A stretch of DNA of 64,000 bases from Paracyclopina nana (lineage: Eukaryota; Arthropoda; Copepoda; Cyclopoida; Cyclopettidae). The DNA is taken from contig JAGUCH010000007.1 of assembly GCA_019096065.1 (NCBI GenBank), forward strand, positions 6,656,501 through 6,720,500, written 5' to 3'. How positions within the stretch are numbered: the stretch's first letter is position 1; every line of letters starts with the position of its first letter. This document shows, piece after piece, positions 977 to 62,315 of this stretch. The position numbers were made by a program, and so were the translations under genes. Below the pieces are notes generated by a model. It did not search any database. It was not told the origin of the DNA and was given only the letters and a program-made list of their open reading frames with translations.

Positions 977-1422
977 ATGAATTCCTCTTTGGTAATTATA
1001 CTTACAAGGGAATTTTCCTTTAATTATTTTTTTGCTCATAGATTGTTGCTTTTGCTGTTTTGGCCTTGGCCTCAGCTGCCCCTTATTATGGCCATGGACA
1101 ATGGCAATGGCCAAGCTCTTATGGACCAGGATTCAGCAGCACTTGCTTTGGCTGCAGGGGGAAAAGGTCAGCTGAGCCAGAACCTTACCACGGTTATGGT
1201 TATGGTCTTGGATATGGATATGGAGGTGGTGTGGCTCACCATCCCTATGGAGGCTCCTCCTATGTTGGAAGGACCATTTGGGGCCTTGGAAAGAAGAAGA
1301 GGTCAGCTGATCCTGAACCAGAGCCTTACTATGGTTATGGTCATGGAGTGGCTCACCATCCCTATGGAGGCTCCTCTTATGTTGGAAGAACCATTTGGGG
1401 CCTTGGCAATGGATACTACTGA
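977..1422 (+). CDS. Secreted Tyr/Gly-rich prepropeptide 1 (two exons)
   Basis: Model: exon 1 977-991, a 50-nt GT-AG intron (992-1041), exon 2 1042-1422; 131 aa. Exon 1 plus the start of exon 2 give a signal peptide (MNSSL then IVAFAVLALASA). The secreted part has a CxxC segment (FSSTCFGCRGKR), then two units that each begin RSAEPEP or RSADPEPEP, run through Gly/Tyr/His-rich sequence and end HPYGGSSYVGRTIWGLG. GKR and GKKKR sites separate the parts; the Gly before the basic residues would allow C-terminal amidation (IWGL-amide). This is the layout of a secretory-pathway peptide precursor. A cuticle or structural role is possible given the Gly/Tyr richness. I do not recognise a named family. 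AATAAA at 1451 fits the poly(A) signal. It is paralogous to the gene at 1933-3167. Confidence 0.85.
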
Positions 1423-1450
1423 AGAAAACCTCTCTAAATCACAAATTTGC

Positions 1451-1456
1451 AATAAA
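1451..1456 (+). terminator. Poly(A) signal of prepropeptide gene 1
   Basis: AATAAA lies about 30 bases after the stop codon, on the coding strand and in AT-rich sequence. Confidence 0.6.
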
Positions 1457-1537
1457 TCAGACACATTAAGTTTACCAAATCTTGCATCCTTAATGTGATG
1501 TTCATTTACTGTTTTTTTCATTCTGGACGACAATTTA

Positions 1538-1690
1538 CTATTTTCAGTTTCGATCAATTTTTTATACCAAATTGAAAGAAAACCATCAAGTCTCATTACT
1601 TAGCCATTTGATTTGGAGATGTTGTTAAGCCAAAAAATTTCTCATGTCTGCAGAAAGTTAAATGTCGTCAAATCAAGAAGAACTTGAAAT
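1538..1690. repeat. Copy of the TTCAGTTT/AAACTGAA dispersed repeat
   Basis: Contains TTTTCAGTTTCGATC, then CAAGTCTCATTA and CCATTTGATTTGG, a combination that recurs many times in the window (near 2800, 4900, 6090, 7610, 8700, 10350, 30450, 31180, 62930 and 63600). No coding potential was seen. It fills much of the gap between the two prepropeptide genes. Confidence 0.6.
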
Positions 1691-1831
1691 TACGTCAATA
1701 TAAATTGGTTATTTTGATGAAGGATCTTATTATCACCAATCACCAGGGGAGCTACTTGACATTTCTAGCTATTTCTGCCTTGAAACGAAGCCAATCAGTA
1801 AAGATATGCACCCACTCAGGATGTACCTGAA

Positions 1832-1865
1832 GCGCGCGCGCGCGCGCGCATTTCAACCTATATAA
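1832..1865 (+). promoter_or_regulatory. (CG)n run and TATA box of prepropeptide gene 2
   Basis: An uninterrupted alternating GC/CG run covers about 1832-1849 and stops some 10 bases before TATATAAGG (1859-1867). The start region shared with gene 1 follows at 1892-1925. The TATA box and shared block support a core promoter. The alternating purine-pyrimidine run just upstream is a Z-DNA-prone sequence; any regulatory effect is inference. Confidence 0.6.
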
Positions 1866-1932
1866 GGGCCCTGAGGGCAACTGGGAATCACTCATTGCAG
1901 CTCTGATTTTTGCAGAGGGCATACACTCCAAA

Positions 1933-3167
1933 ATGATGAAGCTGATCTTGGTAAGTCATTGTCCTTTCAAGCATTGAGCTTTGAATTAAAATATGGGCTT
2001 AATTGCAGTTGACCGCACTTGCTGCAGTGGCTGTGGCTGATCCTGGATACTTTTATCCTGGATACTACCACCAGCAAAACTGGCCTGGCTTCAGGGCTCC
2101 TGGATTCTCCTCCACCTGCTATGGATGCAGGGGCAAGAGGTCAGCTGAGCCTGAGCCTGCCTACTATGCTCACCCTGGATTCTACTATGGACTCCGCCCC
2201 TATGCCTATGGCCCTGGCATCGCTGCCCACCCCACTGGCACCTCTTACACTCAAAGGAGCCCCCAGGTAACTAATACATTCATTCGACTTGATGGGAATG
2301 TTGCTAGTCCAGCCTTGTTTTTGTCTCAATTTGATAACACTGCTCACCAAAAATAATCAGTGTCCACAACCACTGACACAGTTTCAACTGCAAAGGTTGC
2401 GAATTAATCAGGATTCAAATGTTCGGATTCGTCGAATTATTATAGCATATTGATGCCCAACTAGAAATTTTCCCAAGTTTTCTGAAAGTTATTGTAACGT
2501 ATTAGCACTCCTTCGTTTTACCCTAGTTGAGTTGATGTCGTTATATGGCATTATCTGCCTTACCACCAATGTAAAAAAATCAAAGGTGACTCAGAAAATT
2601 GGTGTATTTGATGTTTCTTTGGTGGCAAGACAGTTAAAGTTTCTTAATGACATGAAGTCTATGCTGATAAAATGTATGAGTTTTATTGAGATTTATTTTG
2701 TCGCAAGAGGGCTCTAAATTTCTGGTTCGGATTGAAGCGCTTCTGGATTTGACGACATTTAACTTTTTGTCGATAAGAGTAATTTTTTGGCTTAGCAATG
2801 TCTACGAATCAAATGGCAAAGTAATGAGACTTCATGCTCTGCTTTCAATTTGGTTTTCAGTCATCGAAACTGAATTTTGTTGAATTGGGTAAACATGAGC
2901 TTACGTCAAGATTTCTTAATGTTTCAGGGCCTTGGCAAGAGGTCAGCTGACGAGGAGCCTGCAGCTGTTGAAGAGGCCCCAAGAGCCTATGGCATCCACC
3001 CCAAGGGAGGCAAAAGCTTTGTGGCCAACCAAGTTTGGGGAGCCAGAGCCAAGAGATCTGCTGAGCCAGGATATGGTTACTATGGACTCCTTCCCTATGC
3101 TGGACATGCTTACCATCCAGGATATGCCACCTCCTATGTTGGCCGCACCATCTGGGGACTCCACTAA
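1933..3167 (+). CDS. Secreted Tyr/Gly-rich prepropeptide 2 (three exons)
   Basis: Model: exons 1933-1950, 2009-2266 and 2928-3167, all joined at phase 0; 171 aa. The signal peptide is split by intron 1 (MMKLIL then LTALAAVAVA), at the same place as in gene 1. The mature region holds FSSTCYGCRGKRSAEPEP, a Tyr/Pro-rich segment, GLGKRSADEEP, GGKSFVANQVWGARAKR, and a last unit RSAEPGYGYYG ending SYVGRTIWGLH. KR sites divide it into about four peptides. The last unit ends in His before the stop, so unlike gene 1 it has no Gly for amidation. Intron 2 (661 nt) carries a copied piece of the neighbouring lipocalin gene and a fold-back element. The identical SYVGRTIWGL motif and shared promoter block show a tandem duplication with gene 1. 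Function is unknown. Confidence 0.85.
2280..2455 (-). pseudogene. Copied fragment of lipocalin exon 3 and adjoining intron
   Basis: This stretch of prepropeptide intron 2 aligns by eye with 4402-4573, the first part of lipocalin exon 3 plus its upstream intron. Shared blocks include ATTCGACTTGAT, AATAATCAGTGTCCACAACC and CAGTTTCAACTGCAAA. The copy keeps the plus-strand order, so the lipocalin exon lies antisense to its host gene. Similarity continues into the fold-back element at 2456-2730, implying that one block was duplicated. The copy has no full reading frame. Confidence 0.75.
2456..2730. repeat. Fold-back MITE, CAACCAGAAAT family, copy A
   Basis: Ends resemble CAACTAGAAATTTT and AAATTTCTGGTT, which are inverted. 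The two arms pair around ATGTCGTTA...TTACTGCC and its reverse form. Related copies lie at 4574-4828, 5666-5941 and 9977-10253. No protein is encoded, so it would be a non-autonomous DNA element. This copy lies in intron 2 of prepropeptide gene 2. Confidence 0.65.
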
Positions 3168-36736: not shown

Positions 36737-37735
36737 AAAGTGCCTTACAATCCACAATGACAAAATGCCGTCACACCCAAAAGAGAATCTATGAAAAATT
36801 ACGCAAAAAAGCCTATTGAAAAAAAAAGCAAAAAGCGATTAGATGAACCGCGAGGCTGGATGTGCGCGCGGGTGCAAGGCTCAAGTTATGAGGCTCAACA
36901 TGTGTTTCTAGCGTCAAATAAGCCCAAGGGTCTCTCTTTGAGCGACCTGATCTCAAGCCAGCTCGAATTTCTGTCAGTTGCAGCAAAATAAGCAGGTGTC
37001 AGAACTTGAGACAGACCATTTTAATCACAACATTGCGCACAACAATTATCCCAGGTCATCCTCCAGGTCAAGTTGTTAAAAGATTGTTTCGGTTTGGCCC
37101 CAGCTTTCACCATCTGCTGCTGCTGCTGCCCCCCAACATTATTTTTATGGTGTAAAAATGACCACATGCGGGTCAAATCTATTCAATCCATACATTTTTG
37201 ACATGGCTAGGATAAAATCTGATCAGAATGATGATGATCATCATCATGGAGCTTTTATTGTTGTTTGGGAAGTGCCAAGCCCCAAATATGCTCTTACAGT
37301 GTCCCAAAAATGTGAAAAATTAAAATTGGACATACCTCAAAATTCCCTAAAATTCTTGAGGAAATATTCAGGGGAAAAAGTGCAAATTTGGCCTTACTTA
37401 CCTGCTTACACTTTTAGAGTTTCATAATTTTTGGGACACCCTTTGGTAACCATCTGTCCACTTCACACGAGCTTGAAGAGAGCACTTGAAAAATCTCTAC
37501 CATCCATGCTGGGAATATCAATTTACTGTATTTGCCACACTATGATGGTAGCAGCAGCAGCAGCCATTCCCATCTTCATTTTCAGCCATTTAATTGATGG
37601 AAAAGTTCAGCTGCAGCCCAAAATGGAAGCAGCAGCAGCACACACGTGTGCAGTAGTGAGCAGCTCCCCTGAGATGCTCAGTAACTTCAAAGAGCGAAGA
37701 AGAAAGGGAGGGCCGACCTACAGATACTTTATATA

Positions 37736-37966
37736 TGAAGAAATGGAACCAGACGACGACCACAAGTAGGTCACGACGCCTGATCTCTCTTTTTTGGCTC
37801 TACGCGCGCGCCGCTGGTATATGTTACTTCTACCTGCATTTTTACTTCAGTATGCTAAAGTTTGCTTCGCTCACTTCACCCTAGCAAATAAAGTATACTC
37901 AACCCGTTTCATCACTCTTCTACTCATAAAACTGTTCGAACCCAGTTCTTCACCTCCATTTCATCA
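37736..37966 (+). repeat. 5' LTR
   Basis: 231 bp, TGAAGAAATGG to CATTTCATCA. It contains ACTTCAGTATG near 37845, matching the arthropod TCAGT initiator, with no TATA box, as is common for errantivirus LTRs. AATAAA lies at 37887-37892. I see no difference from the LTR at 51390-51620. Confidence 0.92.
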
Positions 37967-38331
37967 TAGTTGGCTCCCACGGAATTGTATCAAGATCACT
38001 AGTGGAAGTGAAGTGCTTTTTTCCAGAGCGGGGGAGAAATAATATCATCTAAAGAAGACCTAGCCAGTCTAATTTGGATCGACTCCCTCAACAAAGTCGT
38101 ACAGTGCTCCATCACTCCATCTGAACCATAAAGGTAACCTTGCCTTAGACGAGATTAGCTACCTCAAAAAAGGACACTTCCGGCTACGCGCCCATATAAG
38201 TTAAAAGAGGCCCTTAATTCAGAGTCCCGTGTTGTGACTTACAGCTCAAACAAAGCCCTTAAGGCAATCTGGGCGGAGCATAGAAGTTCTTTCCTATCAA
38301 CAACTTACTTTCACGTACATTAGGTTCAAAA
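37967..38331 (+). promoter_or_regulatory. Leader: candidate primer-binding site and splice donor
   Basis: Four bases after the LTR comes TGGCTCCCACGGAATT, which begins TGG as a tRNA-primed binding site should; I could not match it to a specific tRNA and the 4-base offset is unusual. AAAGGTAACC near 38133 is a possible 5' splice donor for the downstream membrane-protein transcripts. Confidence 0.35.
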
Positions 38332-40224
38332 ATGGCTGAATCTGGTGCTCATCATCATGACCACCACGAAGAGACTTTAGAGAACGCCATACAAAATGAG
38401 CTACTAGGCATTGCAGCTCGCATGGCCGTGCCTCCAAATGAAGTTTCACAAGATCGCAGAGCAAAACTTGCCACCAACAGGAAAATTGAGAAGCTTGAGA
38501 GAAACCTCCTCAAAATGCAAGAAAACGTCGACACCAGCTTCTCAACCATCACCAGAGCATTGAATGATGTTCATGAGTCAAACAAGGCCATTCTACAGCG
38601 CATGGAACCATCTCCGGACTCACCTCCACAAGACCAACCTGAGCCAAGAAGATCTCGCCGATCAAGTGTGACATCCTCCATCAGAGGAGACTCCAGAGCA
38701 CCATCTCCTCATGCCAATGCTGGAGTAGCCCCACTCTTCCAAAGCTTGGCTTATGGAACTAGCAACCTTCTCCAAGGGAAAACTCATAAATATGAAAAGT
38801 CCCTTAAGGATCTGAAGGAATATGCTCGTCACAATTCAGTCCAAAACAGGGTGGAAATGGAACGAGATATTATCGCAGCAGAACTCAGGAACGACTTCCT
38901 TCAACTCATTCCAAAACTCATCCAAACGCAAAGAATTCCATGCCTGAAAACCGTCCCTTTCATTCCTGGATCAGATACAAGAGAGTCCAACACGCTTTTT
39001 GTCCAACTAAAAAGAGAAAACTTGAAAGAGTTCCCAAGGTTGAGCAAGGCAAGCCCAGATGTGAGGCACATTATTGAAGCTATGGCTGAGCGACACGCAG
39101 GCGAGCTAACAGCCAAGCAGTTTGCCAACCTCATTATACACCAGACTAACTCTCAACTCAAGGACACTTTCACCAACATTTTCAAGAGTCATGATGATAT
39201 TAATGAAGCTATCAAGGAAATCCTTGAGAGCTATTGTTGCAGCAAGAGACCAGACGAACTCTTGTGCGAGTTTTATGACTCCAAAATTGACACGAAAAAG
39301 GTCGATGACTCGCTAACCAAGATAGTCGAAAAGGCTCGTTTGGCCTTCCCAGAACAAAGGAACGACGCCTTGACTAAGTTAGTTATCGATCATGTCATTC
39401 CCCAGCTGCCTTCAGAGGTACAAAAGGCAGTTAACCTTGAACGGACAAAGATTGCGGAACTCCAAAAAATATCACCCTTTGTTCCACCCATGGATTTGAA
39501 CACGTTCAAAAACATGGTTACATCCCATCCTTCCATGACAAAAAGGGTAGTAAAAAACTTGGAAGCGGCCCCTCAAGCCATAAATAATGAGCATACCACA
39601 ACCGCAAGCATAAAAACCGGTTCTTCCAACCACTCCAATGGCCATTTCGCTGCTAATAATCAAATCATCTCTGAAATGAAAGAAACGAACCAGTTATTGA
39701 TGAAAACCGTAGCTGCACTTGAAAATCAGCCCAAGACTTACCCAAACGAAAAGGGAGGATACAACAGACCTCAAAAGTCTAAGCTGATTGTCTACAAAAT
39801 TTCAGACCCCAAATTTTCTGAAATAGCAGCCAAGTTTGACAAAAAAGGCCCTCTTATGAATGTTCTTCTCATGGAAATCGATTCGTATGAACGAAACACC
39901 AGAAAGAGAGGCCCAAAGCTCAAGATGCTGGATGATCCACATTCGCGAATTCCCTACAAGTTTGACAATCTTGGACGCATTATTCCTGAAAATGCACCAA
40001 TTGACTTTCCAGTATTTGTTGAAACTCAACCGGGAAAGTATCGCATCTCTTTGAAAACTCTTGAAAGAATCTCTATTTCTTGTGCGAGATGTGGACATTT
40101 ACTGTGTGGATTCAATGCTGAAAATTGCATTTACAAGAGCTCCACTCCTAGCTTCAATGCATGCTCCAAATGCATGCAAGGTTTCCATCTTGATCACCAA
40201 TGTCGAGCAGTTCCTTTAAACTAG
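38332..40224 (+). CDS. gag: Gag polyprotein
   Basis: Intact frame, 630 aa, first ATG of the element after the leader. Residues 45-75 look like a coiled coil, 105-125 are Arg/Ser-rich, and the middle is a helical, capsid-like region. There is no retroviral CCHC knuckle. The C-terminal 45 residues instead hold paired cysteines and histidines (CARCGHLLC, CSKCMQGFHLDHQC), which could bind zinc in another arrangement. The stop codon directly follows TTTAAAC, and the protease frame overlaps by 31 bases in the -1 frame. Assignment rests on position and composition; gag proteins have little sequence signature. Confidence 0.85.
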   Translation: MAESGAHHHDHHEETLENAIQNELLGIAARMAVPPNEVSQDRRAKLATNRKIEKLERNLLKMQENVDTSFSTITRALNDVHESNKAILQRMEPSPDSPPQDQPEPRRSRRSSVTSSIRGDSRAPSPHANAGVAPLFQSLAYGTSNLLQGKTHKYEKSLKDLKEYARHNSVQNRVEMERDIIAAELRNDFLQLIPKLIQTQRIPCLKTVPFIPGSDTRESNTLFVQLKRENLKEFPRLSKASPDVRHIIEAMAERHAGELTAKQFANLIIHQTNSQLKDTFTNIFKSHDDINEAIKEILESYCCSKRPDELLCEFYDSKIDTKKVDDSLTKIVEKARLAFPEQRNDALTKLVIDHVIPQLPSEVQKAVNLERTKIAELQKISPFVPPMDLNTFKNMVTSHPSMTKRVVKNLEAAPQAINNEHTTTASIKTGSSNHSNGHFAANNQIISEMKETNQLLMKTVAALENQPKTYPNEKGGYNRPQKSKLIVYKISDPKFSEIAAKFDKKGPLMNVLLMEIDSYERNTRKRGPKLKMLDDPHSRIPYKFDNLGRIIPENAPIDFPVFVETQPGKYRISLKTLERISISCARCGHLLCGFNAENCIYKSSTPSFNACSKCMQGFHLDHQCRAVPLN

Positions 40225-40830
40225 CTCGGCCCTTTCCAAAAACAGCAACTGTAAAAGAAGAAATATCATTAGTCACATTCTCAGACATTTCACTCGCAGA
40301 CATTGACACTGAAGATGATGACAATCCCACCATTTCCTCTTCAATCGAACCTGACTGGTTAGATTCAGATGCTGCCTTGGAAATCGCATCCTCATTAGAC
40401 TATCAAGAAATTTCGCAAGTCTCCAAAGTTCTTACTCCAGATATCATTTTAGAAGGACTCGATCTTCCAGTGATCAACGAAAGTCCTCTAAAAACAGCTT
40501 TGACAACAGACTTTGGCCTAAAAGTTGACTTCACTGTCGACTCAGGTGCACAAGTCTCAATTCTCTCCGTCAAAACTTTCCAAGAGCTTCCTAAAGACAA
40601 GTATTCCCTTTCTAATGAAAAACTCACATTGGTCGATGTACAAAAAGAATGAAATACCACAATACCAGTGTCCAATCGAACTAACCTTCCAACTACAAGG
40701 ATTTCAGTTTAAGCACACATTTTTCATTGCCTCTTCAAGCAATCTACTTGGTTTAGATTTCATAACCACTCACAACCTTCAAATAATCCAACAAAAAGGT
40801 AGAACAAAACCTCATCATAAGCTTTGAGCA
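40194..40830 (+). CDS. pol: Retropepsin-like protease segment of pol
   Basis: The open frame ends at 40652, and homology continues one frame over to about 40800. The first part contains FTVDSGAQVSIL, with the aspartic protease D-S-G active-site motif. The second part contains NLLGLDFI, the ILG.D element near the end of retropepsins. The frame step falls at a run of five A near 40644. A second step near 40795 (also five A) leads to the reverse transcriptase frame. Only the observed frames are described here. Both steps could be sequence errors, true mutations or, less likely, recoding sites. Confidence 0.75.
40215..40221 (+). promoter_or_regulatory. Candidate -1 ribosomal frameshift site TTTAAAC
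   Basis: In the gag frame the codons are CCT TTA AAC TAG, so T TTA AAC fits the X XXY YYZ rule exactly and ends at the gag stop. The protease frame is open in -1 from 40194. TTTAAAC is a known efficient slippery sequence in several RNA viruses. I cannot see an obvious hairpin in the next 30 bases by eye. Confidence 0.7.
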
Positions 40831-42406
40831 AAGATCTGAACAAAAGTCTCTGCCATCTCCGGAAGGCTTAGACTCATGGGCTTCAGTGGACGAGATCGAA
40901 GTTCTACCCGGATTAAATGAGGTCACTGGCACTCTGGATCTTCCGGATGGCCAATATAACTTGTCAATTCCCAGTGAATCACCCTTAAAGACAGTTGGAT
41001 CACTTTCAGTCAGAGGGGGAAAATTCACCACCACCATGGAAAACAAGTCTACTTCAAGATTCCCACTTTCCTGCAATGAAATCATTGGAAAAGTAACCAC
41101 TGAGGATGAAACCACCAACCAAATAGATGAAGAGACAGTTGAACCAACCGGATTCCCATGCTTGACTACAGAAGAAAAAGATGACTGGAAAATGATTATT
41201 CGTGATAATCATTCTCACATCGATAAATCTGCAGTTGAAGACATCATATCATTCATCGAAAAGGAAACACCCAATCTTTTCAGCACACATGAATCCGACA
41301 TTGGAAAGATCCATGAAAAGTTTGAAATCTTCTTTGACATAGAAACTACAACTGAAAAACCTGTCTACATCAAACCTTACACCTTGGATCCGCTCAGAGA
41401 AGCTCAACTGGCTGACCAACTCGCTGAACTTGAGAAAATTGGAGTTCTGAAAAAAGGATTTTCACCATGGGCCATGCCATGTTTCTTGGTCACAAAAAGG
41501 AATGGAACATTAAGAGCAGTGTATAATGCTCGTGAACTGAACAAGGTTACAAAACCTGTTAAGTTCCCCTATAAGCCAATTAACACCATCATCGAAGAAA
41601 TCTCATTGGCCAACCCCAAATACTTCACCACCATTGACATTGCCTCAGCCTTTCTCTCTATTCCCATGACAGAGAGAGCACAAAAGATCTGTGCAATTGT
41701 CACCAATTCAGGTCAGTGGCTTCCCCTTCGAATGATCTTTGGTCTCTCTAATGCTCCATCCTACTACAATTACTGCATGAGCCGCATCCTTGATACTGCA
41801 GACAAATCTCCGTGTAAGAGCAACTTTGTGTGCAACTACTCTGATGATGTCTGTCTTTATTCAAAAAGCTTTGAACTCAACATTCAGCAAACCAAAATCA
41901 TACTCAGAACACTTTACAATGCTGGAATCAAACTACGACCAAGAAAATTCCAGTTTGCCCAAAAAAGCATCGAACTTCTCGGCAAACACTTGGACCAAAA
42001 TGGATTTTCCATTCTTCCTCGACACTTGTCTGCTGTCAAGAACTTTAAAAAGCCTGAGGACAAACACACTTTGATGTCCTTCATCGGCTTGGCTCAATGG
42101 AACGCTAACTTAGTTTATGCCTTTTCTGAAAAATTGAAGCCACTCACCAAACTTTTACGGAAAGATGAAGACTTTGCCTGGGGTACCGAACAAGATCAAG
42201 CCTTTGACGATATTAAAAATGCCATTATCAACTCTACAACGGTGTACTTTGTGAACTATAACGAACCACTCTATCTCCATTATGACAGCAGCCTCAATGC
42301 CATCGCTGGCTATTGCTATCAGATCAAGTCCTTCTCCAGGGAGGAAGTCTCCAAATGGCATGAAGAACTTTATCAAGAGGAATCCTCGATAGCAAGTCAA
42401 AATTGA
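40800..42406 (+). CDS. pol: Reverse transcriptase segment of pol
   Basis: A long open frame. RT core motifs are present in order: SPWAMPCFLVTKRNGTLRAV, FTTIDIASAFLSIPM (the first catalytic Asp), LPLRMIFGLSNAPSYY, CNYSDDVCLYS (the catalytic box) and LLGKHL. The C-terminal connection includes FIGLAQWNANLV and the start of RNase H (LYLHYDSSLNAIAG). The catalytic box is Y-S-D-D, whereas gypsy elements usually have a hydrophobic residue before DD. The frame stops at 42406 just after a run of four A, and homology moves one frame on. Confidence 0.88.
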
Positions 42407-43110
42407 ACACAAAACATCCAGTCATCCCTCCATCTGGAAAAATAATCCAGGAATGGTAACACTGTCACCAATAGATGAAGCATTGAAGCAATATGAAAGT
42501 AACTTGAAAACCAACAACGAAGAGCTCTTCATCAGAGACATCAGACATGAAGAACTTGACGAATTGGAACCCATCTCTACATATCTTCAGGAAAAGGACA
42601 AATTACACATAATTTGTCCTGTGGGTTTACAGTGCAACGCTCAACAAGCAGCAATCCAGATATACCATTCTGGAACTTGAATGCCTTGCCCTTGTGAAAT
42701 CACTCGAACATTTTGCTCATCTACTTCATGGAGTTCCGACAACTTTTGTTTGTGGTGATAACATGGCACTTCTGTGGATACTCAAATCATCCAAGCTGTC
42801 CCCAAATCCACCTCCAAAGCTAGTGAGATGGTGCATCACGATTAGCTCAATGCCATTCAAATGCATCTTCCTACATTGCCAAGGAAAATACAATTTGTGT
42901 GCAGATGCCATGACTAGAAACTTTCCCATAGTGTATAAAGCTGTTCAAAATGATGGTCAACTAGAACCCATTCTCATCACTTCACCGTTCAAGCTTGGTA
43001 AGGTTGTCACTTTAAATGATCTCCAAGAATATCTAGAAAAGTCTATGAAGAAGGTTTTGAACCCAAGTTCAATGGAGAACAAAAGCTTGGGACACGCAAG
43101 AAAGACCTAA
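42407..43110 (+). CDS. pol: RNase H region and tether of pol, frame-shifted twice
   Basis: The first part (42453-42680) is in one frame and the second (about 42630-43110) in the next. The second includes LELECLALVKSLEHFAHLL and CGDNMALLWI, the conserved end of gypsy RNase H, then a linker. The steps fall near 42632 (GGG) and near 43082 (AAAA), the latter leading into the integrase frame. As in the protease, all steps are single extra bases at short homopolymers. Confidence 0.7.
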
Positions 43111-44692
43111 AAAGACTTTTTCCTACATTGACTCGATTCCGGAGAAGATCCAAATTAACTACATTGGTAAGAAAAATCCAAAACATGAACTCGCTGAACT
43201 GCTGACTCTTGATAACATCGCAATGGAACAAGAAAAGGATGCCAATATTCAAAAAATGAGGAGAAATCCACCAAAAGGCTTTGCTTTTGAACAAAATGTT
43301 CTATACAAAACTGTTCAAAATCCAGACCAATCCACTGAAAGGAGCCTTATTTATATTCCCGATTCTCTTCTTGGTGTACTTTTAGCCTATCTTCATTTGG
43401 ATTGTCATATAGGAGGAACAAGCTTGGCACGAATGGCTGCTATGACTCATTATCATCCCAAGTTATTTAAGTCAGCTTTAAACTTCACAATCCAATGTTA
43501 TCTTTGCCAACTCGCCAAACCCAATCGACTTGGAAAGGCCAAGCTAAAACCTATCTCATATGGAGAATCACCAAAAGGCCATACCTTTTCAATTGACATC
43601 CTCGAAGGCTATCCTGAGTTTTACAAAAGCTCCAAGATCCTTGTCATGATTGAGTACTTTACTGGTTACAAGATCATAGTACCCGTCAAGAATGCGACTG
43701 GTGACGAAATTGCCAAGATTATTGAACAATACATCATTGCAGTGTTTTCACCACCTAAAGTCCTCATCTCTGATGGTGCCTCCAACCTTGTCTCCTCATC
43801 AAAAGTCAGAAGACTTCTGGAGTATTATGACATCCACCCACATGTGACAATGCCATACTCTCCTCAAGCTCACTCAATTGTGGAAAATGCAGTTCAACAA
43901 GTCAGCAACCTCATCCGGATTTTGACCAATCAACTTAAACTACCCTGGATCAAACTCTTGTATCTTGTTCAACTATCCTTGAACACTCGCCCCTCACCAA
44001 GAATTGGCAACATTAGCCCCATTTATGCTTACTTTGGAGTTGATCACGACAGACTAAGACCAATTACAGAAAAGGACATTGTCGAACCAAGCACAATCAA
44101 AGACATCTGGAAAGCTCATGACGCCATTATACAAGAAGCAATCAATAAGAACACTCAGCTCAAAAAGCAAGCAAGAGAAAAGATTCCTGGAAAAGACATC
44201 AACTATGAGCCTGGCACTTACGTTTTCATGCTTGATAAGAGAAAACATGAAAAGCCAAAGATTTGGGTACGTTATCACACGAGCCCTTACCTGGTCCTCA
44301 AGAACTTGCAAAACACATGCCTTCTAAAAAGTTTCAATGGAGTTGTCTTTCCTGCTCACAAGAATCTCCTGAAGAAATGCTCTCCTCGCTTCGCTGAGCT
44401 CTATGGAAATTTGCCATTAAGTGTTAGATTCATGCTTGGATCACACTTCACATTGGAGTCTCTCGAACCGTACATGGAAATCCAAAAGACTCCCGAATTC
44501 TTCGATGAGGACATTTTCAAGCCCATTGAAAAGGGCCGTGTAATGACACGTGGTGAATCAAAAAGACTAAAGGAGCAAGAAAAAGCTCAAAGTGTCAACT
44601 CTCAGCTTCCAATCATTGACCAGATGTTCCTGGATGATGAAGAAGATGAACAAGCAATGCCATATGAACCTACTGTACATTTCGCAGAATGA
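43090..44692 (+). CDS. pol: Integrase segment of pol
   Basis: Open from about 43090, with the first ATG at 43223 (489 codons from there). An HHCC zinc-binding domain is visible (HLDCHIGG, then QCYLCQLAK). The catalytic triad follows as SIDIL, ISDGAS and VENAV, with the D-D spacing and 36 residues between the second D and E, close to the usual D(35)E. A GPY/F-like segment appears as YHTSPYLVL. The C-terminal tail is acidic. Integrase follows RNase H, which is the Ty3/gypsy and retrovirus order. Confidence 0.9.
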
Positions 44693-44759
44693 ATATTAGA
44701 CAAATGTGATACAAATAATGATGGATGAATGATAACCTCTACACTCTACTTTGACTTCT

Positions 44760-46397
44760 AGCCCAACTATGAGTACAAGGATGAAACAACTTCTGTGGAG
44801 TTTGGCGTTGGCAACACTGCTCCACAACACGAGTGTGACAAGCACTCCCTTCTGCAAGGCTTACAGCATTGTGTCCTTGTCAGAAACACTCAATCAACTA
44901 CATCAGCTCCTAGAGCCTCTAGTTGATGCCATCTCGAACCAAATTACTGATGTGGAGACTTTTGCAAAAGGTCGCATTGTCAACGACAAAGTTTACAAGC
45001 TGATCAATGTTCAAGACAAGTTTGCCACTTCAAAATTGGTCTGCGAGATCGAGAAGATGACTTTCATCAAGCCCAAAGGTGATTTTGCATCTGTTTTAAA
45101 GAAGATAGAGGCAGGTGTGAGAGACCCACCTAACTTCAAATTCGATGACAAGAAAATCTGGGTAAATCTTCAATATGACAAAAGAACTGATTCCTACTAC
45201 TTCGACGGTGAACCATTTCCACTATACTGGGGAGACAATGTTGAGAATCTAAGTGTCAAGCCTACTTCATTTGATGAAAACAAGTGCTATCGGATCGTCG
45301 TACCAAACAATTACGACGACAACACTGTTTTTGTAATTGAAGATGTGGCTTGCAGGAACGGACAAGCTTTGACACTGTGTGAAGCTGCCATTCCGGACAA
45401 TTATGAAAAGTACACTTCCCTTCGAAAAGTTTACTCAGCAGAACTCACTACTATCAAAGACAACTTCCCAAATGGAAAAGAGTTAATCCAAGAGTTGAAT
45501 CAAGCTGATTGGTGCGATCAATATCAAGAAAGCAATGTGGATGAACTCTTTCTGGACCACCCTTTACAAGAAGTGAAGAATCTACTAGAATCTACTCCAC
45601 CCAATATGGAGCTGATCTTTGACCTTCTTCCTAATCTAGTGAATGATTATGTCACAGCGGACAATATTATTCAGAGATTGGATAATAGTGCAAAATCTAT
45701 GGATGGAAACCAAATTTGCATTTGTGATGAAGAAGAAAAACAAAACTCCGCTGAAATCAACCCTCCTACTACAGTTATTAATGGCTCTATACCCACTAAG
45801 ACAAAAAGGCCAAAGGTGATAAAAACACTTCCAGCTGATAAGCCATCAATCAACATCACTGAGATTTTTGATAAGGCAAAAGAAAAACTGCCAGATTGGA
45901 TCACTAAACATACAAATCCTAAAGTGCTGGATATTATATTTAGTATCATAGGCGGTATATCTGGAATTGTCACCTTGATCACAAGCCTTTTCCTCGTCAT
46001 AAGAAGCTGTCGGAAAGATGGATTTATGTGCCATAAAAGAAAAAGATTTGTTGCTTTTAAAGTACCTGCCAACAAGGCGAGTCCCAAAACTACCAATCGT
46101 AATGAAACTGAAATGGCCACTTTTCTCCCATCAAAAAAGGACTCTTCAAGCGAGGGGGAAAATGATGATAAAAGTGATGTCTATTTTGTGACTCAAGATT
46201 CAAAATCAAAGAAACAAATGGACAACACAAAACCTTCAAGACCACCAAGAAGAACCCCAAGAGCCAAAAGATCTGTAAAAGTGATTGATGTTGCTCATGT
46301 CCATAGCATTGATCCCAGGAGACACAGCAACTATTCCTGTTATACAAGTGAGGATGAAATTCAAGCAGCAAGCAAAATTCACCCCTACTATGACTAA
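44760..46397 (+). CDS. Element membrane protein 1: C-type-lectin-like ectodomain, type I
   Basis: The best start is the ATG at 44769 (542 aa), since CTTTGACTTCTAG just before it is a strong 3' splice site for a spliced transcript. Residues about 5-24 form a signal peptide. The region about 74-205 has the plan of a C-type lectin-like domain: VYKL, first Cys in KLVCEIEK, IWVNL at the WIGL position, FDGEPF, a following Trp, then Cys in NKCYRIV, Cys in VACRNG and the final Cys in LTLCE. That is four cysteines in the canonical C1-C4/C2-C3 order. A transmembrane helix lies at about 386-412, then a 130-residue basic/Ser-rich tail. Three N-glycosylation sequons precede the helix. There is no furin site or fusion peptide like that of baculovirus-F-type errantivirus envelopes. 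The lectin-like call is from pattern only. Confidence 0.75.
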   Translation, partial: SPTMSTRMKQLLWSLALATLLHNTSVTSTPFCKAYSIVSLSETLNQLHQLLEPLVDAISNQITDVETFAKGRIVNDKVYKLINVQDKFATSKLVCEIEKMTFIKPKGDFASVLKKIEAGVRDPPNFKFDDKKIWVNLQYDKRTDSYYFDGEPFPLYWGDNVENLSVKPTSFDENKCYRIVVPNNYDDNTVFVIEDVACRNGQALTLCEAAIPDNYEKYTSLRKVYSAELTTIKDNFPNGKELIQELNQADWCDQYQESNVDELFLDHPLQEVKNLLESTPPNMELIFDLLPNLVNDYVTADNIIQRLDNSAKSMDGNQICICDEEEKQNSAEINPPTTVINGSIPTKTKRPKVIKTLPADKPSINITEIFDKAKEKLPDWITKHTNPKVLDIIFSIIGGISGIVTLITSLFLVIRSCRKDGFMCHKRKRFVAFKVPANKASPKTTNRNETEMATFLPSKKDSSSEGENDDKSDVYFVTQDSKSKKQMDNTKPSRPPRRTPRAKRSVKVIDVAHVHSIDPRRHSNYSCYTSEDEIQAASKIHPYYD

Positions 46398-46567
46398 TGG
46401 ATATGCAACATCAACTTTTCGCCTTCAAATACAGTATATCCAAGCATTTTATATCTAGTTCAACACAACAGCAATTTTTAATGAGCTGCTAGTGCACATT
46501 AAGCACGACGAAGATACACTATCAAATTGCAAAACCTCAGTCTCATCTACTACCAAGAAGAAGCAAC

Positions 46568-47794
46568 ATGAGTCCACTCCAATTCTTCGTCATCACCTTA
46601 AGATTGATTTCTGCCATAGAAGCCAAATCAATCTCTGAGATTGAATTCCTCAATAACTATGTCCTCAATCAACAAAGACTAACCACCTGTCTTGCATCCG
46701 AAGCTGAACTCAAGGAAAACAACCAGGAATTTAAGACCAAAATTACCACCTTGACTGATCAACTTGACAAGTGCCAAAAAACCTATGCTGCCATGATAAC
46801 AGAAGAGAAGGAGAATAACAAATCTACTTATCTGGATCCAACGGCAGACACCGATCTTGAGGAGCAAGAGGCTCTTTTTCAAAACATAAGTGTGGCCTCT
46901 CAAGATTTGATCAATGCTTCATCCAGATTGAATCCCAATCAAGGTCTCCGTGATGTCCCTTGTCAAAGAAAAGTCATCATCCTGGAAAAACTCTATGATT
47001 ATGCCAAATCCAAGGTTGAGGATATGCTAATTACCATGTCAGCTCAAGAAGAACGCCTCAATACAGAAATCCTTAACCTCCAAAAGGATCTATCCAATCA
47101 AAAGGTCCTCAACATTGAGCTCCAAGCTACAATTGCCTCACTAGAAGATGTCAAGACTGGTACGGTCCCCATTTATGACGAATTGATTGGAACCCCTGGA
47201 TTCGACACCGCTCTGAGAAACAATCCCACCTTGACGATGTGGCTCACCATCCCCACCTCGATCTTAGTCCTCCTGGCTTTGGCATTCTCCACATATCTCC
47301 TTCATAAGTGCTCAGAGAACAACTTTTTCCTTCTGAGACAGCTTGGAACCAGAGCTAGAAAATACGTGAAACGTCAAGACAAAAAGTTGAGATCCAGAAT
47401 CCAAGTACGACTTACCAAGATGAGGAAAGCCAAGGACTCCATGGAAAATGAAAACTTCGACGAGGATATTCTTGACCCCTCGAAGGACATCTTAAAGTCT
47501 GTGGAGAAAAGCATTATCAAAAATGAGCGTAAACTTGAGGCCATGAAGCACAAAAAGGCCAAGCTCATGGAGATGATGCCAAAACCTGGAAACTCACCTT
47601 CAACTCCATCCAACACTCCCACTATTCACGTTGAAACCGCAGTTGAAGTTCATGTCGCTGATGACAACAATTCTGACGGCAACAACGTCGAAAATGACGA
47701 CAACATTGAGGTGAACACTTCTTCCACTGAGAAAATCGTCGCTGATGTCACCGCGGCCTCCCAAGTTGAAAAGGCCCAGTGTAAAACTGATTAA
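46568..47794 (+). CDS. Element membrane protein 2: coiled-coil ectodomain, type I
   Basis: Intact, 408 aa. Residues 1-20 form a signal peptide (MSPLQFFVITLRLISAIEAK). Heptad-rich stretches at about 24-80 and 135-196 suggest a coiled-coil ectodomain, with three cysteines and several sequons. The transmembrane helix is at about 222-246 (PTSILVLLALAFSTYLLHKC). The tail is about 160 residues, first strongly basic and helical, then acidic and Asn/Ser/Thr-rich. CTCATCTACTACCAAG just upstream could serve as a splice acceptor. I recognise no family. It may act with membrane protein 1 as a two-part surface system, which is speculation from adjacency and matching topology. Confidence 0.72.
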   Translation: MSPLQFFVITLRLISAIEAKSISEIEFLNNYVLNQQRLTTCLASEAELKENNQEFKTKITTLTDQLDKCQKTYAAMITEEKENNKSTYLDPTADTDLEEQEALFQNISVASQDLINASSRLNPNQGLRDVPCQRKVIILEKLYDYAKSKVEDMLITMSAQEERLNTEILNLQKDLSNQKVLNIELQATIASLEDVKTGTVPIYDELIGTPGFDTALRNNPTLTMWLTIPTSILVLLALAFSTYLLHKCSENNFFLLRQLGTRARKYVKRQDKKLRSRIQVRLTKMRKAKDSMENENFDEDILDPSKDILKSVEKSIIKNERKLEAMKHKKAKLMEMMPKPGNSPSTPSNTPTIHVETAVEVHVADDNNSDGNNVENDDNIEVNTSSTEKIVADVTAASQVEKAQCKTD

Positions 47795-48412
47795 AATGCA
47801 TTTGGAATCACTTGCATCCACTTTCGAATAAAATTAACAAAATCACTTTGTTTTGCCATGCTTTAGGAAAATGTCAACAAAAATTAAGTTGGTCGGAAAA
47901 ATAGCTTGATCTAGACACTTCATTTTCCAACCTGATTCTCCATGGATCCAAACGCCAAAATCCTCACCAATTGACGCCCTCGATGGCGTAATGGCATTCT
48001 CTGATTATATTTTCGCAAAATCTTTGAAAATGATCAAAACCATCAAAGCAAGAATTTTCCCAAATTAGCCTTAAAAATAACTGCTCGATTCACACGGCTT
48101 GATGATTAGTAAACAACAACAACTGTCATGTGGACCGTGGGAAAATTCATCCTCATTCATCTATCAGCTGATGTTTTGACAAGTCATCTCAGGCCTACTT
48201 CCGGACGCCATAATAAGGAAAGTAAATCTGTCAATTATAAGGAATCTTCAAAAATCAGTCACATCACACCTTTCAAAAGTAATTGCCATATATTGGTCAT
48301 TTGCTGGCTTAACATCATAACAATTATTAAAAAAAAGTGACTAGATTAAAGCTTCCTCTTCTGTAAAAGGACAGCCATTCGAGCTGACCTCCTCTCTTGG
48401 GCCATCTTGGCC
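47795..48412. other. Gap between sense and antisense blocks of the element
   Basis: About 600 bases with AATAAA just after the membrane protein 2 stop (near 47828). No convincing frame on either strand. Antisense gene A ends at 48413, so the sense and antisense transcripts converge here. Confidence 0.5.
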
Positions 48413-49318
48413 CTAATGGCCATCCTCCGACTCGGGACTTCCATTGGAGTTGGGGCAACCTGGCTGGAAGAATCCAGGCCCCCCTTGACAAAAGGGCTGC
48501 TGCCCTTGACCCTCCTGGTCACCGACGACGCCATTGCCATTACTGGCCAGTCCAGCCGAGGCCACTACCTCGCCGTTATCGCCGACAGCATCATAAATGC
48601 CATCCTCGAGGTTGACATCCTCAAAAGGTGCTGATGGGGTAAGACAACTCGATTGACCTGACTCCACATCTTCGGGCCATCTCGGTAAACGGGGGAGGAT
48701 GAGGTCACGGACCAACACTGTCCTCTCTGTGGAGCCTGGCGGGTGGAAAACGAGAGAGAGGTACTCGCCAGACAATACCTCTCTCACAAACGCGTCATTC
48801 CCATCGAAGTTCGTGGCTAACAAGTAAGGCAAGACCACGCGCACCAAATTGGCCAACGTTTGAGCGGCCTCAGTAGGCTTCGGCCTCACTGGCAACCGCT
48901 CCTTCCCGCACATGTCATGAAAGACATACCCCAGAAATGGTCCAAACGTCAGCGGGAAGAACACAGCTGCCAGGAACTTGACAAAGATGTCAAGCCACAC
49001 ATTCCGGAGAGCCTTGAAGAACACAGGAACAGTGAAAGTGAAAGCTGCCTTTAAAATTCATATCAACTTACTTCTACGAGTGAAAAACCCGTACACCATG
49101 TACGCGAGGAAGACGAGGAAGACGAGGACCATGTACACCATCACCACCAAAAACCAAGCTCACCAATCAACAGTGACCCTACACCTTCTTCAGGCTGACA
49201 CATATTAGCCTTAAGCCAATCCGGATCCACAAACTTGGACACCTCATTCCGGATCTCGCCGACCTCCGATGCCACCTTACTGAGCCGGTACTGCGTTCAT
49301 ACGCTGAACTGACGACAT
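48413..49318 (-). CDS. Antisense gene A: membrane-associated protein, uncertain N-terminus
   Basis: The clear part is the minus frame 49044-48413, with two hydrophobic segments near its start (around FVKFLAAVFFPLTFGPFLGY) and a Gly/Asn/Gln-rich C-terminus. Upstream, 49278-49164 also reads as coding (VSKFVDPDWLKANMC). It would join in phase through a 119-nt GTGAGC...GGCAG intron (49163-49045). The same interval also encodes a strongly hydrophobic stretch (MVYMVLVFLVFLAYMVYG), so retention or an alternative exon is possible, though that frame meets a stop at 49058-49060. A start at 49318 needs a frame step near 49279. GC content is higher than in the sense genes. No family is recognised. Confidence 0.5.
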
Positions 49319-49411
49319 GACGCTGAAAAGTCAATGATTAAACAAAGTGATTGACAGTAAAGCAAAACTAGCAAACTTAAAAAGGCTGAGGAAACATCTA
49401 TTTACAAAAGC

Positions 49412-50073
49412 TTAACAGAAAGGAAAAAGAGGGAAGAAGAAACAGAATGGAGAAACTGGTGGCGAATAGGACATGGTTTGTGACACCACCAGGATCATCA
49501 ACACCATAGCCATCAATCCGTATCGCCTGGTTGACCCTGACCAGACGAGGACTCCATAAAAGAGGCTGGCAAGGCCTCCAGCCAGGCCTACAATGATGCC
49601 AATCAGAGCCAAGATCAGCCTTCTCAAAAGTCTTCGTCGCCATCTCCCAGCTTCCACTCTACTTGGCCCTCCATAGTAATCCCGCCATGCCATCCGATAG
49701 TCAAGTGATGCCAAGGCCAGAATGGCCATGGCGAGGACCCAAAGAGCCCTTAGACGAGGTGACAAGCCCGACGCAGCCTCCGTCAACGCCTCCAAATCCA
49801 CAAGGAATCTCTTCAAAAGACGAATTACTTCTTGACTAGAATCGTTGGCCATCCAGAATTGGAGGCCATGGGCAATAAGCTCCGTTATGAAATCAGCCAT
49901 CTACAAATCAAATGTTTCCACAGCCCTGAAGAAAATGCTAAAGTGTAACTTACCTTGACAAAGACTTCGCAAAAAACCGTAATGGTGACTGACCGGGAAT
50001 GAAAATTCGAATGACCTGGCTTATGAATGCTACCCAAAAAAGTTGACCTCATGTCCCTGCTTCTCAACCTCAT
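49412..50073 (-). CDS. Antisense gene B: multi-pass membrane protein (two exons)
   Basis: Model on minus: exon 1 50073-49954 (40 codons), a 53-nt intron (GTAAGT to TTTGTAG), exon 2 49900-49412, joined in phase; 202 aa. Exon 2 has three hydrophobic segments: LRALWVLAMAILALASL, LILALIGIIVGLAGGLASLF and MAMVLMILVVS. A basic Arg-rich loop (RWRRRLLRR) separates the first two. The splice sites are strong and the intron has the size of host introns in this window, so the gene is expected to be read as host-type mRNA from the strand opposite to gag-pol. No family is recognised. Confidence 0.65.
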
Positions 50074-50518
50074 GCAAGAGACAGGTTAATACAGCCCATT
50101 CAGCCCGCTACAGGTCCACACTCCTGACTTCACCTGTTGCCACCACAAGTCTGTTCAGCTATACGTGCACTCCTAAGCCGAATTCAAGCTAGTTGCCTGA
50201 CAACAGCTACCAGACAAAGATGCATCTTTGCAACTATTGCTCGAAAGCACCAATCTAATCATGCAAACATGGCTTACCTTGGCCTCGTTCATTTGCATGA
50301 TCATTGGAGCGTTCTGATCGTGGCCAAAATTATCTCTTTAAGAAAAATGAAGAAAACTCAAATCATTCATGTGACCATTGGCATCTCTAAAATCTTGAAA
50401 GCCTTCAATTTAGTGACATTTGTTGAAGCTTCATCAAACTCAACCATAGAATATCCACGGAACACTTTGTCGCATCATCATCAACTACTCTTTCTGCAAC
50501 AACTATTTTCACTTCCTT

Positions 50519-50671
50519 ATGGATTCGCCAAACAAAAAGATCAATTTCATTTGTGAACCGCACTCAATTGAAGAACTCATTCTGGACATTGATGAATTAA
50601 GCAGATTGAAGTCCATTGAAGACACAGTACAGAAACTTTACAGGCTTGCCTTCAGGAAACTCCACTACTAA
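50519..50671 (+). CDS. Small sense frame, 50 aa, in the antisense block
   Basis: ATG at 50519, stop TAA at 50669-50671. The product is acidic in the middle and basic at the end, likely helical (IEELILDIDELSRLKSIEDT), with codon use like the element's other sense genes. It could be a small regulatory protein or the last exon of a spliced sense transcript. Length alone does not prove coding. Confidence 0.35.
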   Translation: MDSPNKKINFICEPHSIEELILDIDELSRLKSIEDTVQKLYRLAFRKLHY

Positions 50672-50786
50672 CCGCCAAAGAGGACTCGCCCGACATGAAG
50701 CAAGAAACAGGTTTTAATACCAGTCCACAACGAAATCTACAATAAGTCCACATGGAGAAGATCAGCCCAAAAACATCACTAATGAT

Positions 50787-51352
50787 TTATTCATCATCTT
50801 TCTCATTCTCAAAAGTATCATACTCTAATGATATTTCATCACACAACATGACTTCCCTGGAAACAGCTTCCACTTGGTCATCTTCATCACCCATATTTGA
50901 AATAGTAATCTCAAGACTCTCTCTTGTCTCCATCATAATGCCTGATTCGGATTTTGAAGATGACGCTGCCCTTATTCGGTTGGGGTCCTCTAAAACCAGA
51001 TCACGGAAATATGACAAGTCAATGTGAAGATTCTTCTCAAGAGCCCTCCGCACTTTTCTCCTGAATATTGGTGATCTCTTCAAATACCGGCACACCTCCT
51101 CGTACTGTCTCCTTTTCAACGACAAAATGATCCTTTTCAACGTATTCACCACTGATGCGGCCTCCAACCTAAAATTGACACTTCTCTGGTCTACCCCATC
51201 GCCATTCCCCAGTTCGTCCATGGGCAAACGATGGATCATCATAAGAAGATCGACATAGGCAATGCAAATCGACACCTAAATTGGAAAAATCACATTATTA
51301 TAGACGTCGTGATTCATTTCTTCAATCATACCTGACTGGTCCTAGCCTTCAT
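50787..51352 (-). CDS. Antisense gene C: basic helical protein (two exons)
   Basis: Model on minus: exon 1 51352-51332 (MKARTSQ), a 56-nt intron (GTATGA to CAATTTAG, 51331-51276), exon 2 51275-50787, joined in phase; 169 aa. The middle is helical and Arg/Lys-rich (LKRRQYEEVCRYLKRSP); the C-terminal third is acidic with Ser/Glu. No signal peptide or membrane segment, so probably cytosolic or nuclear. The start codon is only 38 bases inside the 3' LTR, so its promoter would lie in or next to the LTR. No family is recognised. Confidence 0.6.
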
Positions 51353-51375
51353 CGTGGAAGGCTAGCTTCTTCTTC

Positions 51376-51389
51376 CGGGGGGATATCTA
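51376..51389 (+). promoter_or_regulatory. Candidate polypurine tract before 3' LTR
   Basis: GGGGGGATATC sits just before the 3' LTR start at 51390. It is short for a plus-strand primer and followed by mixed bases, so the call is weak. Confidence 0.3.
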
Positions 51390-51620
51390 TGAAGAAATGG
51401 AACCAGACGACGACCACAAGTAGGTCACGACGCCTGATCTCTCTTTTTTGGCTCTACGCGCGCGCCGCTGGTATATGTTACTTCTACCTGCATTTTTACT
51501 TCAGTATGCTAAAGTTTGCTTCGCTCACTTCACCCTAGCAAATAAAGTATACTCAACCCGTTTCATCACTCTTCTACTCATAAAACTGTTCGAACCCAGT
51601 TCTTCACCTCCATTTCATCA
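51390..51620 (+). repeat. 3' LTR
   Basis: 231 bp, same ends and same sequence as 37736-37966 by side-by-side reading. AATAAA is at 51541-51546. TATATA follows directly and matches the six bases before the 5' LTR. Confidence 0.92.
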
Positions 51621-51626
51621 TATATA

Positions 51627-61589: not shown

Positions 61590-62315
61590 CTCAGTAGCCA
61601 AGTCTCAGTTATGAAGGCTCAGCAGCTCAGTCTCAGTTATGAAGGCTCAGCAGCTCAGTCTCAGGAACAGAGTCCAAGTTTACAAGTCCAAGCTGAGAAG
61701 TCCAGTCTCAGTGGCTAAGTCTAATTTGTCTAGTCTCAGTATTCTAGTCTCAGTGGATCAGTCTAAGTAGCCCAGTCACTTCAAGTTGTCCAGTTAAAAT
61801 AATCCAGACTCAGTAGCTAAGTCTTAGTGATCCAGTCACTTAGAGTCGTCCACTTTCAAAAATCCAGTCTCAGTAATCCAGTCTCAGTAAATCAGTCTCA
61901 GTAATCCAGCCTCAGTTATCCAGTCTCAGTAATCCAGTCTTGTTAGTCCAGCCTCAGTTATCCAGTCTCAGTAATCCAGTCTCAGTAATCCAGTCTCAGT
62001 AATCCAGTCTCAGCAATCCAGTCTCAGTAATCCAGTCTCAGTAGTTCAGTCTCAGTAATCCAGTCTCAGCAATCTAGTCTCAGTAATCCAGTCTCAGTAG
62101 TTCAGTCTCAGTAATCCAATCTTAGTAGTTCAGTCTCAGTAATCCAGTCTCAGTAGTTCAGTCTCAGCAATCCAGTCTCAGTAATCCAGTCTCAGCAATC
62201 TAGTCTCAGTAATCCAGTCTCAGTAGTTCAATCTCAGTAATCCAATCTTAGTAGTTCAGTCTCTGTAGTCCAGTCTCAGCAATCCAATATAAGTTGTCCA
62301 GTCTCAGTAATTGCT
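61590..62315 (+). repeat. 14-bp minisatellite, CAGTCTCAGTAATC
   Basis: About 50 units of CAGTCTCAGTAATC with variants (AGTAGTT, AGCAATC, TTAGT). The left part is more diverged (CTCAGTTATGAAGG, TCCAAGTTTACAAG). A higher-order pattern is visible at 62030-62240, where AGTAGTTCAGTCTCAG and AGCAATCTAGTCTCAG alternate. Confidence 0.85.

Follow-up and report, generated by a model that had tools for sequence, protein, structure and literature searches.

A young Ty3/gypsy-like, env-type retroelement of Paracyclopina nana with a predicted intron-bearing cassette of three genes on the opposite strand

We analyzed a 64,000-nucleotide (nt) stretch of the genome of the copepod Paracyclopina nana (assembly GCA_019096065.1, contig JAGUCH010000007.1, positions 6,656,501 to 6,720,500 of the forward strand; hereafter the window), which contains a long terminal repeat (LTR) retroelement that we named Z. 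The window copy of Z is 13,889 bp long (37734-51622), and TATA is duplicated at both of its outer ends. Genes for gag, pol and two env-type proteins lie on the sense strand, and a further block of genes lies downstream on the opposite strand. The borders and sense-strand features, including each open reading frame (ORF) and the domains of pol such as its reverse transcriptase (RT), are as follows.

37730..37733, no strand: target-site duplication TATA, left copy (right copy at 51623-51626)
37734..37968, + strand: 5' LTR, 235 bp, TATGA..TCATA, with AATAAA at 37887 (sequence comparison)
37971..37986, + strand: primer-binding-site-like TGGCTCCCACGGAATT, directly 3' of the 5' LTR (by eye)
38332..40224, + strand: gag ORF, 630 amino acids (ORF call)
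40194..44692, + strand: pol, with protease, RT, RNase H and integrase (Pfam and structure-database comparison)
44769..46397, + strand: env1, 542 amino acids, one strong hydrophobic membrane segment (ORF and hydrophobicity)
46568..47794, + strand: env2, 408 amino acids, one strong hydrophobic membrane segment (ORF and hydrophobicity)
51377..51382, + strand: polypurine-tract-like GGGGGG ahead of the 3' LTR (by eye)
51388..51622, + strand: 3' LTR, 235 bp, no difference from the 5' LTR (sequence comparison)

The matched 231-bp LTRs of the original prediction were confirmed as an identical pair with TATA flanks, slightly longer at 235 bp, the shorter figure omitting a TA at each end. When this terminal TA was counted as LTR, matching 4-bp target duplications (tata, cagt, gcaa and gagg, by eye) were found in all four copies read of the 11 in the assembly, and the LTR core of 231-232 bp was 100% identical within each of the four pairs read. 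In the searched assembly (92 Mb, 10 contigs; LTR match counts are lower bounds), at least 23 LTR matches were observed, 22 of which form 11 pairs with a start-to-start spacing of 10.1-13.7 kb; the unpaired match is only 76% identical, and no lone near-identical LTR was present among the matches listed. Thus, given the identity of the LTRs within the pairs read and the pairing of 22 of the 23 matches, the Z family is young. The most decayed copy, L018 (C1:13076288-13090208), has nearly equal LTR scores (382 vs 378 bits) though several of its genes carry stops, which may reflect a defective copy that spread late, or sequencing error.

The predicted gypsy order of gag-pol was borne out by Pfam matches in pol to RVT_1 (3.6e-19), RT_RNaseH (5.5e-13) and rve (1.3e-7, just below the curated cut-off), together with a weak match of the protease domain (E = 0.013), which gives the Ty3/gypsy order protease, RT, RNase H, integrase. 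The pol of the window copy is broken across several frames; in other copies, pol stays open for up to 1500 codons. Compared with solved structures, the RT best matched 4ol8_A (E = 7.8e-29), which is labelled RT/RNase H only and which we take to be Ty3, followed by 7q5b_A, the Ty3-G Gag-Pol (6.8e-28); for the integrase, foamy virus was nearest (1.1e-12) and Ty3 lay further down (1.8e-7). The closest RTs outside the Z family, among 150 scored matches, are about 30% identical. On these comparisons of sequence, the RT of Z is Ty3-like. Members of Ty3/gypsy (Metaviridae) make a 4-6 bp target duplication, and usually, not universally, have TG..CA LTR ends; a CCHC knuckle in gag is usual. In Z, the duplication was 4 bp in the four copies read, the LTR ends are TATGA..TCATA rather than TG..CA, and a Pfam search of gag gave neither a credible match nor a zf-CCHC match.

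Two sense genes, each with a signal peptide and a membrane helix, had also been claimed. Both ORFs stood, with one strong hydrophobic segment each; the signal peptides are plausible by eye only. Neither env1 nor env2 had a credible Pfam match, the baculovirus F and Monjiviricetes fusion models both being unmatched, and thus 'env' is used here as a label by position and build only. Of the interpretation in the original prediction, the division of surface functions between the two sense proteins and the placing of Z in an undescribed lineage stay conjectural. A baculovirus-F-like Pfam match was likewise absent from the env1 relative P0002. In a database of 5.8 billion proteins, env1 had two relatives (98% and 56% identical), and a structure model of env1 from five sequences had a pLDDT (predicted local distance difference test) of 32. 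A further envelope-like family of 595 amino acids, without a Pfam match, occurs near other elements of the genome (L042:4050-5834 and L021:4140-6061); no profile match was found between env1 and the L042 protein.

To the right of env2, three genes had been noted on the opposite strand, where the ORFs have 214, 162 and 162 codons. The count of genes stood, but two of them are apparently split by introns, and exon D had been missed because its frame is broken in the window copy. We resolved the antisense block into genes A, B and DC.

48413..49012, - strand: second exon (C) of gene DC, 199 codons and a stop, net charge -13, hydrophobic stretch near its start
49013..49071, - strand: intron of gene DC, GT..AG, 59 nt (L016: 56 nt); in phase 0 in copies with an open exon D
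49072..49318, - strand: first exon (D) of gene DC; 82 codons in copies with an open frame, broken in the window copy
49412..49900, - strand: gene B, 162 amino acids, hydrophobic segments (ORF; low-confidence all-helical model)
50787..51275, - strand: second exon of gene A, 162 codons and a stop, without a strong hydrophobic segment (ORF)
51276..51331, - strand: gene A intron, 56 nt, GT..AG (splice-site reading)
51332..51352, - strand: gene A exon 1, 7 codons, adjoining the 3' LTR (splice-site reading)

When 47800-51380 was searched against the assembly, the block was found end to end in 10 of 11 matches, with 96-100% identity to that of the window, and the eleventh match, in the 10.1-kb copy, covered 818 nt. 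The antisense block therefore belongs to Z. Copies of the LTR family that lack the 47.8-51.4 kb block, which had been named as the observation that would speak for a later insertion, did not appear, the block being full in 10 copies and partial in one.

Frame A is open in 11 of 11 copies, frames B and C each in nine of the 10 copies holding the region, and exon D, from its ATG to the splice site, in seven of 10. No start of its own lies near the beginning of C. Exon D closes, in phase 0, with a GTAAGT donor; 59 nt past this donor, a pyrimidine-rich stretch with AG is followed by C in the same phase. In copy L016, this intron is 3 nt shorter with its AG end kept, and the stop-to-stop frame of C begins at exon 2. 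The DC intron is present in all 10 copies holding the region, and the A intron in all 11. Exon 2 of A starts exactly at an acceptor, and 56 nt upstream a donor (GTATG in 10 copies, GTAAG in one) ends an in-phase, 7-codon ATG exon in each of the 11 copies. Hydrophobic segments number at least two in B, one in D and at least one in C; B and DC look like membrane proteins by prediction. The structure model of B was weak (pLDDT 59, all helical).

Coding evidence was obtained by comparing nine copies (the window and L010-L017); the decayed L018 was counted apart, and L019 lacks most of the region. Substitutions were each counted once, with the observed transition bias, and the P values are approximate, the copies being related. 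In the antisense frames, nonsynonymous (N) and synonymous (S) changes numbered 8 N/20 S in C (P = 9.4e-6), 3 N/12 S in B (P = 8.4e-5), and 5 N/10 S in D (P = 0.0019). On the sense strand, env2 was also under purifying selection (N/S = 12/16, P = 0.0015). Among the six frames, the predicted one alone is stop-free; a frame on the opposite strand shows some of the same signal in C, B, D and env2 (P 0.003-0.05), which is to be expected where third positions coincide. The exons of A, B and C (486, 486 and 597 nt; 1569 nt together) had no distinct gap block, vs six in the 886-nt A-B spacer, with one in the DC intron and 0 in the 93-nt B-D spacer. Per-copy gap counts against the window copy were 34 in the A-B spacer, 23 in D and nine in env2, figures in which events of the window copy are recounted for each other copy; L018 alone has five gap events in C, six in B and 0 in A. 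When copy L011 was shuffled with its dinucleotides and the AG of the acceptor preserved, an exon the size of D that fits the D-intron-C phase arose in 0 of 2000 shuffles, and the fit of A exon 1 was reached in 20 of 2000. Selection and intron conservation together indicate that B, D and C are protein-coding.

Decayed relatives of B, D or C (B', D', C') were found elsewhere in the genome, at C3:1.09, C3:4.89, C3:5.76, C3:6.19, C8:6.74 and C7:5.62 Mb. In matched stretches, these relic proteins are 42-93% alike among themselves and about 22-58% vs those of Z. Two relics share the place of the DC intron and its phase 0: that at C7:5.62, where it measures 61 nt, and that at C3:1.09, where it holds a repeat insert and measures 204 nt. 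In one-sequence comparisons, the alignment of D with D' of C3:1.09 began at the first Met and stopped three residues short of the splice site (E = 4e-6), and that with D' of C7 was weaker (2e-4). Because the place and phase of the intron and the alignment of D are common to decayed relics, DC appears to be an old two-exon gene. We rejected the idea that the relics are spliced retrocopies, the intron being retained in all three read; in the C8 relic, B' is joined to D' through a deletion that lies away from the splice sites (by eye). The intron of the C3:1.09 relic contains a high-copy repeat of about 129 bp (L023:9692-9895). A single-copy open frame at L027:9220-9663 encodes 148 amino acids with hydrophobic segments like those of B; its similarity to B is weak (E = 0.008 from B, 0.01-0.03 in reverse), and homology is uncertain.

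Relatives of env1 bear on the age of the sense-strand arrangement. At C7:5.67 Mb (L042:1694-2722), a relic integrase end, 30% like that of Z (E = 1e-15), is followed directly by an env1 relative, which argues that the env1-after-integrase arrangement is older than Z and that this relic represents an older lineage of the same element type. Another env1 relative (about 25%) adjoins C' at C7:5.62, but on the same strand, and the antisense placing of B-DC is, among the sequences compared, demonstrated in Z only.

Taken together, we consider it probable that Z is a young Ty3/gypsy-like, env-type LTR retroelement bearing a three-gene, intron-containing cassette (A, B and DC) on the opposite strand, with splicing as predicted. 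Several observations weigh against this reading. Exon D is broken in three of 10 copies (the window, L010 and L018) and has three distinct gap blocks within 247 nt among the nine copies; env2 has six. In L018, the old copy on C1, the frames of B and C are interrupted. The stretch between 47795 and 48413 holds neither AATAAA nor ATTAAA in antisense; the variant AATATA occurs there twice. The C8:6.74 relic keeps the intron borders (57 nt), with the exon-1 side off by one base. No relative of env2 was found in the protein database at E <= 0.01, and viral contigs searched with env1, C, env2 and RT gave none, so that the cassette is so far known from this assembly. Two further points on this side, concerning the surroundings of the relics and the evidence for A and B, are best considered with the alternatives that they favor.

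The antisense block could instead have begun as a cluster of host genes, or as a different mobile unit, that one recent founder took up by chance; its genes would then do nothing for Z and merely hitch-hike. Next to the B-D-C relatives at C3:1.09, C3:5.76, C3:6.19 and C8:6.74 Mb, neither a Z-type RT nor env1 turned up in the 6-10 kb that were read on the expected side, B' at C3:1.09 remains open over 151 codons, and the near identity of the 10 full blocks fits a single young expansion. Even with these points in its favor, we regard this explanation as unlikely. Far less credible is that the antisense ORFs are chance or non-coding, as in elements with antisense RNA but without antisense protein. 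The profile of B found no relative at E <= 0.01 among 7995 candidates scored from the 5.8-billion-protein database, and the selection test of A fell short of significance (9 N/7 S, P = 0.15); however, the frame-specific selection on B, D and C, the lack of gap blocks in A, B and C, the phase-0 intron common to two relics, and the failure of every shuffle to reproduce DC make this explanation very improbable. A nested insertion or assembly join restricted to the window copy is scarcely conceivable, with the full block at 10 of 11 places beside family LTRs at nearly equal spacing.

Under the preferred reading of Z as an element with its own opposite-strand cassette, the sense strand would yield an LTR-driven gag-pol RNA, and env1 and env2 would probably be expressed via splicing. 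Retrovirus-like splicing is plausible because the env1 ATG lies 7 nt 3' of a splice-acceptor-like CTTCTAG and a donor-like GTAACC is present at 38134. Antisense transcription would start in or beside the 3' LTR, and splicing of the antisense RNA in the cell would give A, B and DC. The ATG of exon D lies 4 nt after an acceptor-like site and that of gene B 25 nt after the acceptor-like TTCTTCAG; because both follow such sites, a single antisense transcript from the 3' LTR side may be alternatively spliced, and trans-splicing would be another route to the antisense messages. For the cassette proteins, membrane accessory roles such as particle release or a change of the host cell would be our likeliest guess.

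This orientation would have consequences for the introns. A retroelement that copies itself via spliced RNA loses its sense-strand introns. Only the sense RNA of Z would be reverse-transcribed, so the antisense introns would stay through the copying cycle; because they escape removal in copying, an intron-bearing cassette would best be carried backwards. Globin gene-therapy vectors are built in reverse orientation to keep an intron (PMC6775231). We therefore put forward, at about even chances, the proposal that Z took up an existing spliced membrane-gene cassette (B-DC) as reversed genomic DNA, which now forms a second, opposite-strand accessory set. If true, Z would be the natural equivalent of retroviral vectors that keep an intron through reverse orientation.

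The original prediction held that env-bearing gypsy elements usually carry no antisense accessory cassette, which is too broad once plants are counted. The plant Ty3/gypsy families Grande, RIRE2, Retand and PvRetro13, and also the fungal Boty, have antisense ORFs downstream of pol and ahead of the 3' LTR, and this coding region is kept in all or most copies (PMC7264820). The antisense coding region of Z sits in the same place. However, these families are described with one antisense ORF each, and the main text of that paper never uses the word intron (PMC7264820), whereas Z is an animal element in which three antisense genes, two of them with predicted introns, accompany a pair of env-type genes. 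Among the Retroviridae, the HBZ and APH proteins of human T-cell leukemia virus (HTLV) and the ASP protein of human immunodeficiency virus type 1 (HIV-1), which is predicted to have two membrane segments, are encoded by antisense genes read from the 3' LTR, spliced in HTLV (PMC10186651). Each such virus is described with one antisense gene, whereas Z has a separate three-gene block downstream of the sense genes; compared with the spliced gene of HTLV, Z has predicted splice sites and a phase that fit. LTR elements of bdelloid rotifers have extra ORFs after pol, and the main text describing them uses the word antisense once, for small RNAs, and intron never (PMC5408684). LTR elements that acquired an envelope gene include the errantiviruses and the BEL-Pao element 'Anakin' with a chuvirus glycoprotein (PMC7642597, PMC12440569); in Pfam, env1 and env2 of Z match neither the baculovirus-F-like envelope of the former nor the Monjiviricetes/chuvirus glycoprotein of the latter.

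What is new here is that an env-type element of an animal carries a predicted antisense cassette of several genes with introns. We met no multi-gene spliced antisense cassette of an animal LTR element in the literature searched, which left most subscription papers beyond its reach and is no proof of absence. As an element that would keep introns by carrying genes backwards, Z could serve as a natural test case for how retroelements acquire intact spliced genes and how two converging gene sets evade double-stranded-RNA silencing. It also bears on the roles of antisense accessory proteins, which are undetermined for the plant elements too (PMC7264820).

Another LTR element of this genome (L020 and L022; C7:5602001-5622000) has an RT that is 21-34% like that of Z in matched stretches, and 195-nt identical direct end repeats. 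It carries a glycoprotein in the place of env, and a near-identical copy of this glycoprotein in L021 matched the Monjiviricetes fusion protein (PF24664, 1.4e-72); a 433-bp tandem repeat flanks the element on both sides (L020:4076-6695 and L022:1-3765). We dropped the chuvirus-glycoprotein element as a source of the cassette, the glycoprotein and the B, D and C proteins being mutually unmatched and the cassette also lying apart. Some room for a link is left by C3:6.19, where D' has, at a distance of 5 kb and on the other strand, a glycoprotein-bearing element that belongs to a different family, with an RT, 31% identical to that of Z, some 10 kb away.

An Rfam search of the window gave no match. 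The host genes include, by eye, a PR-domain zinc-finger gene. Small secretory-looking ORFs with GKRSA and SYVGRTIWG motifs are repeated at 1042-3167, and an array of the 14-bp unit AATCCAGTCTCAGT, about 32 copies by length, occupies 61861-62311.

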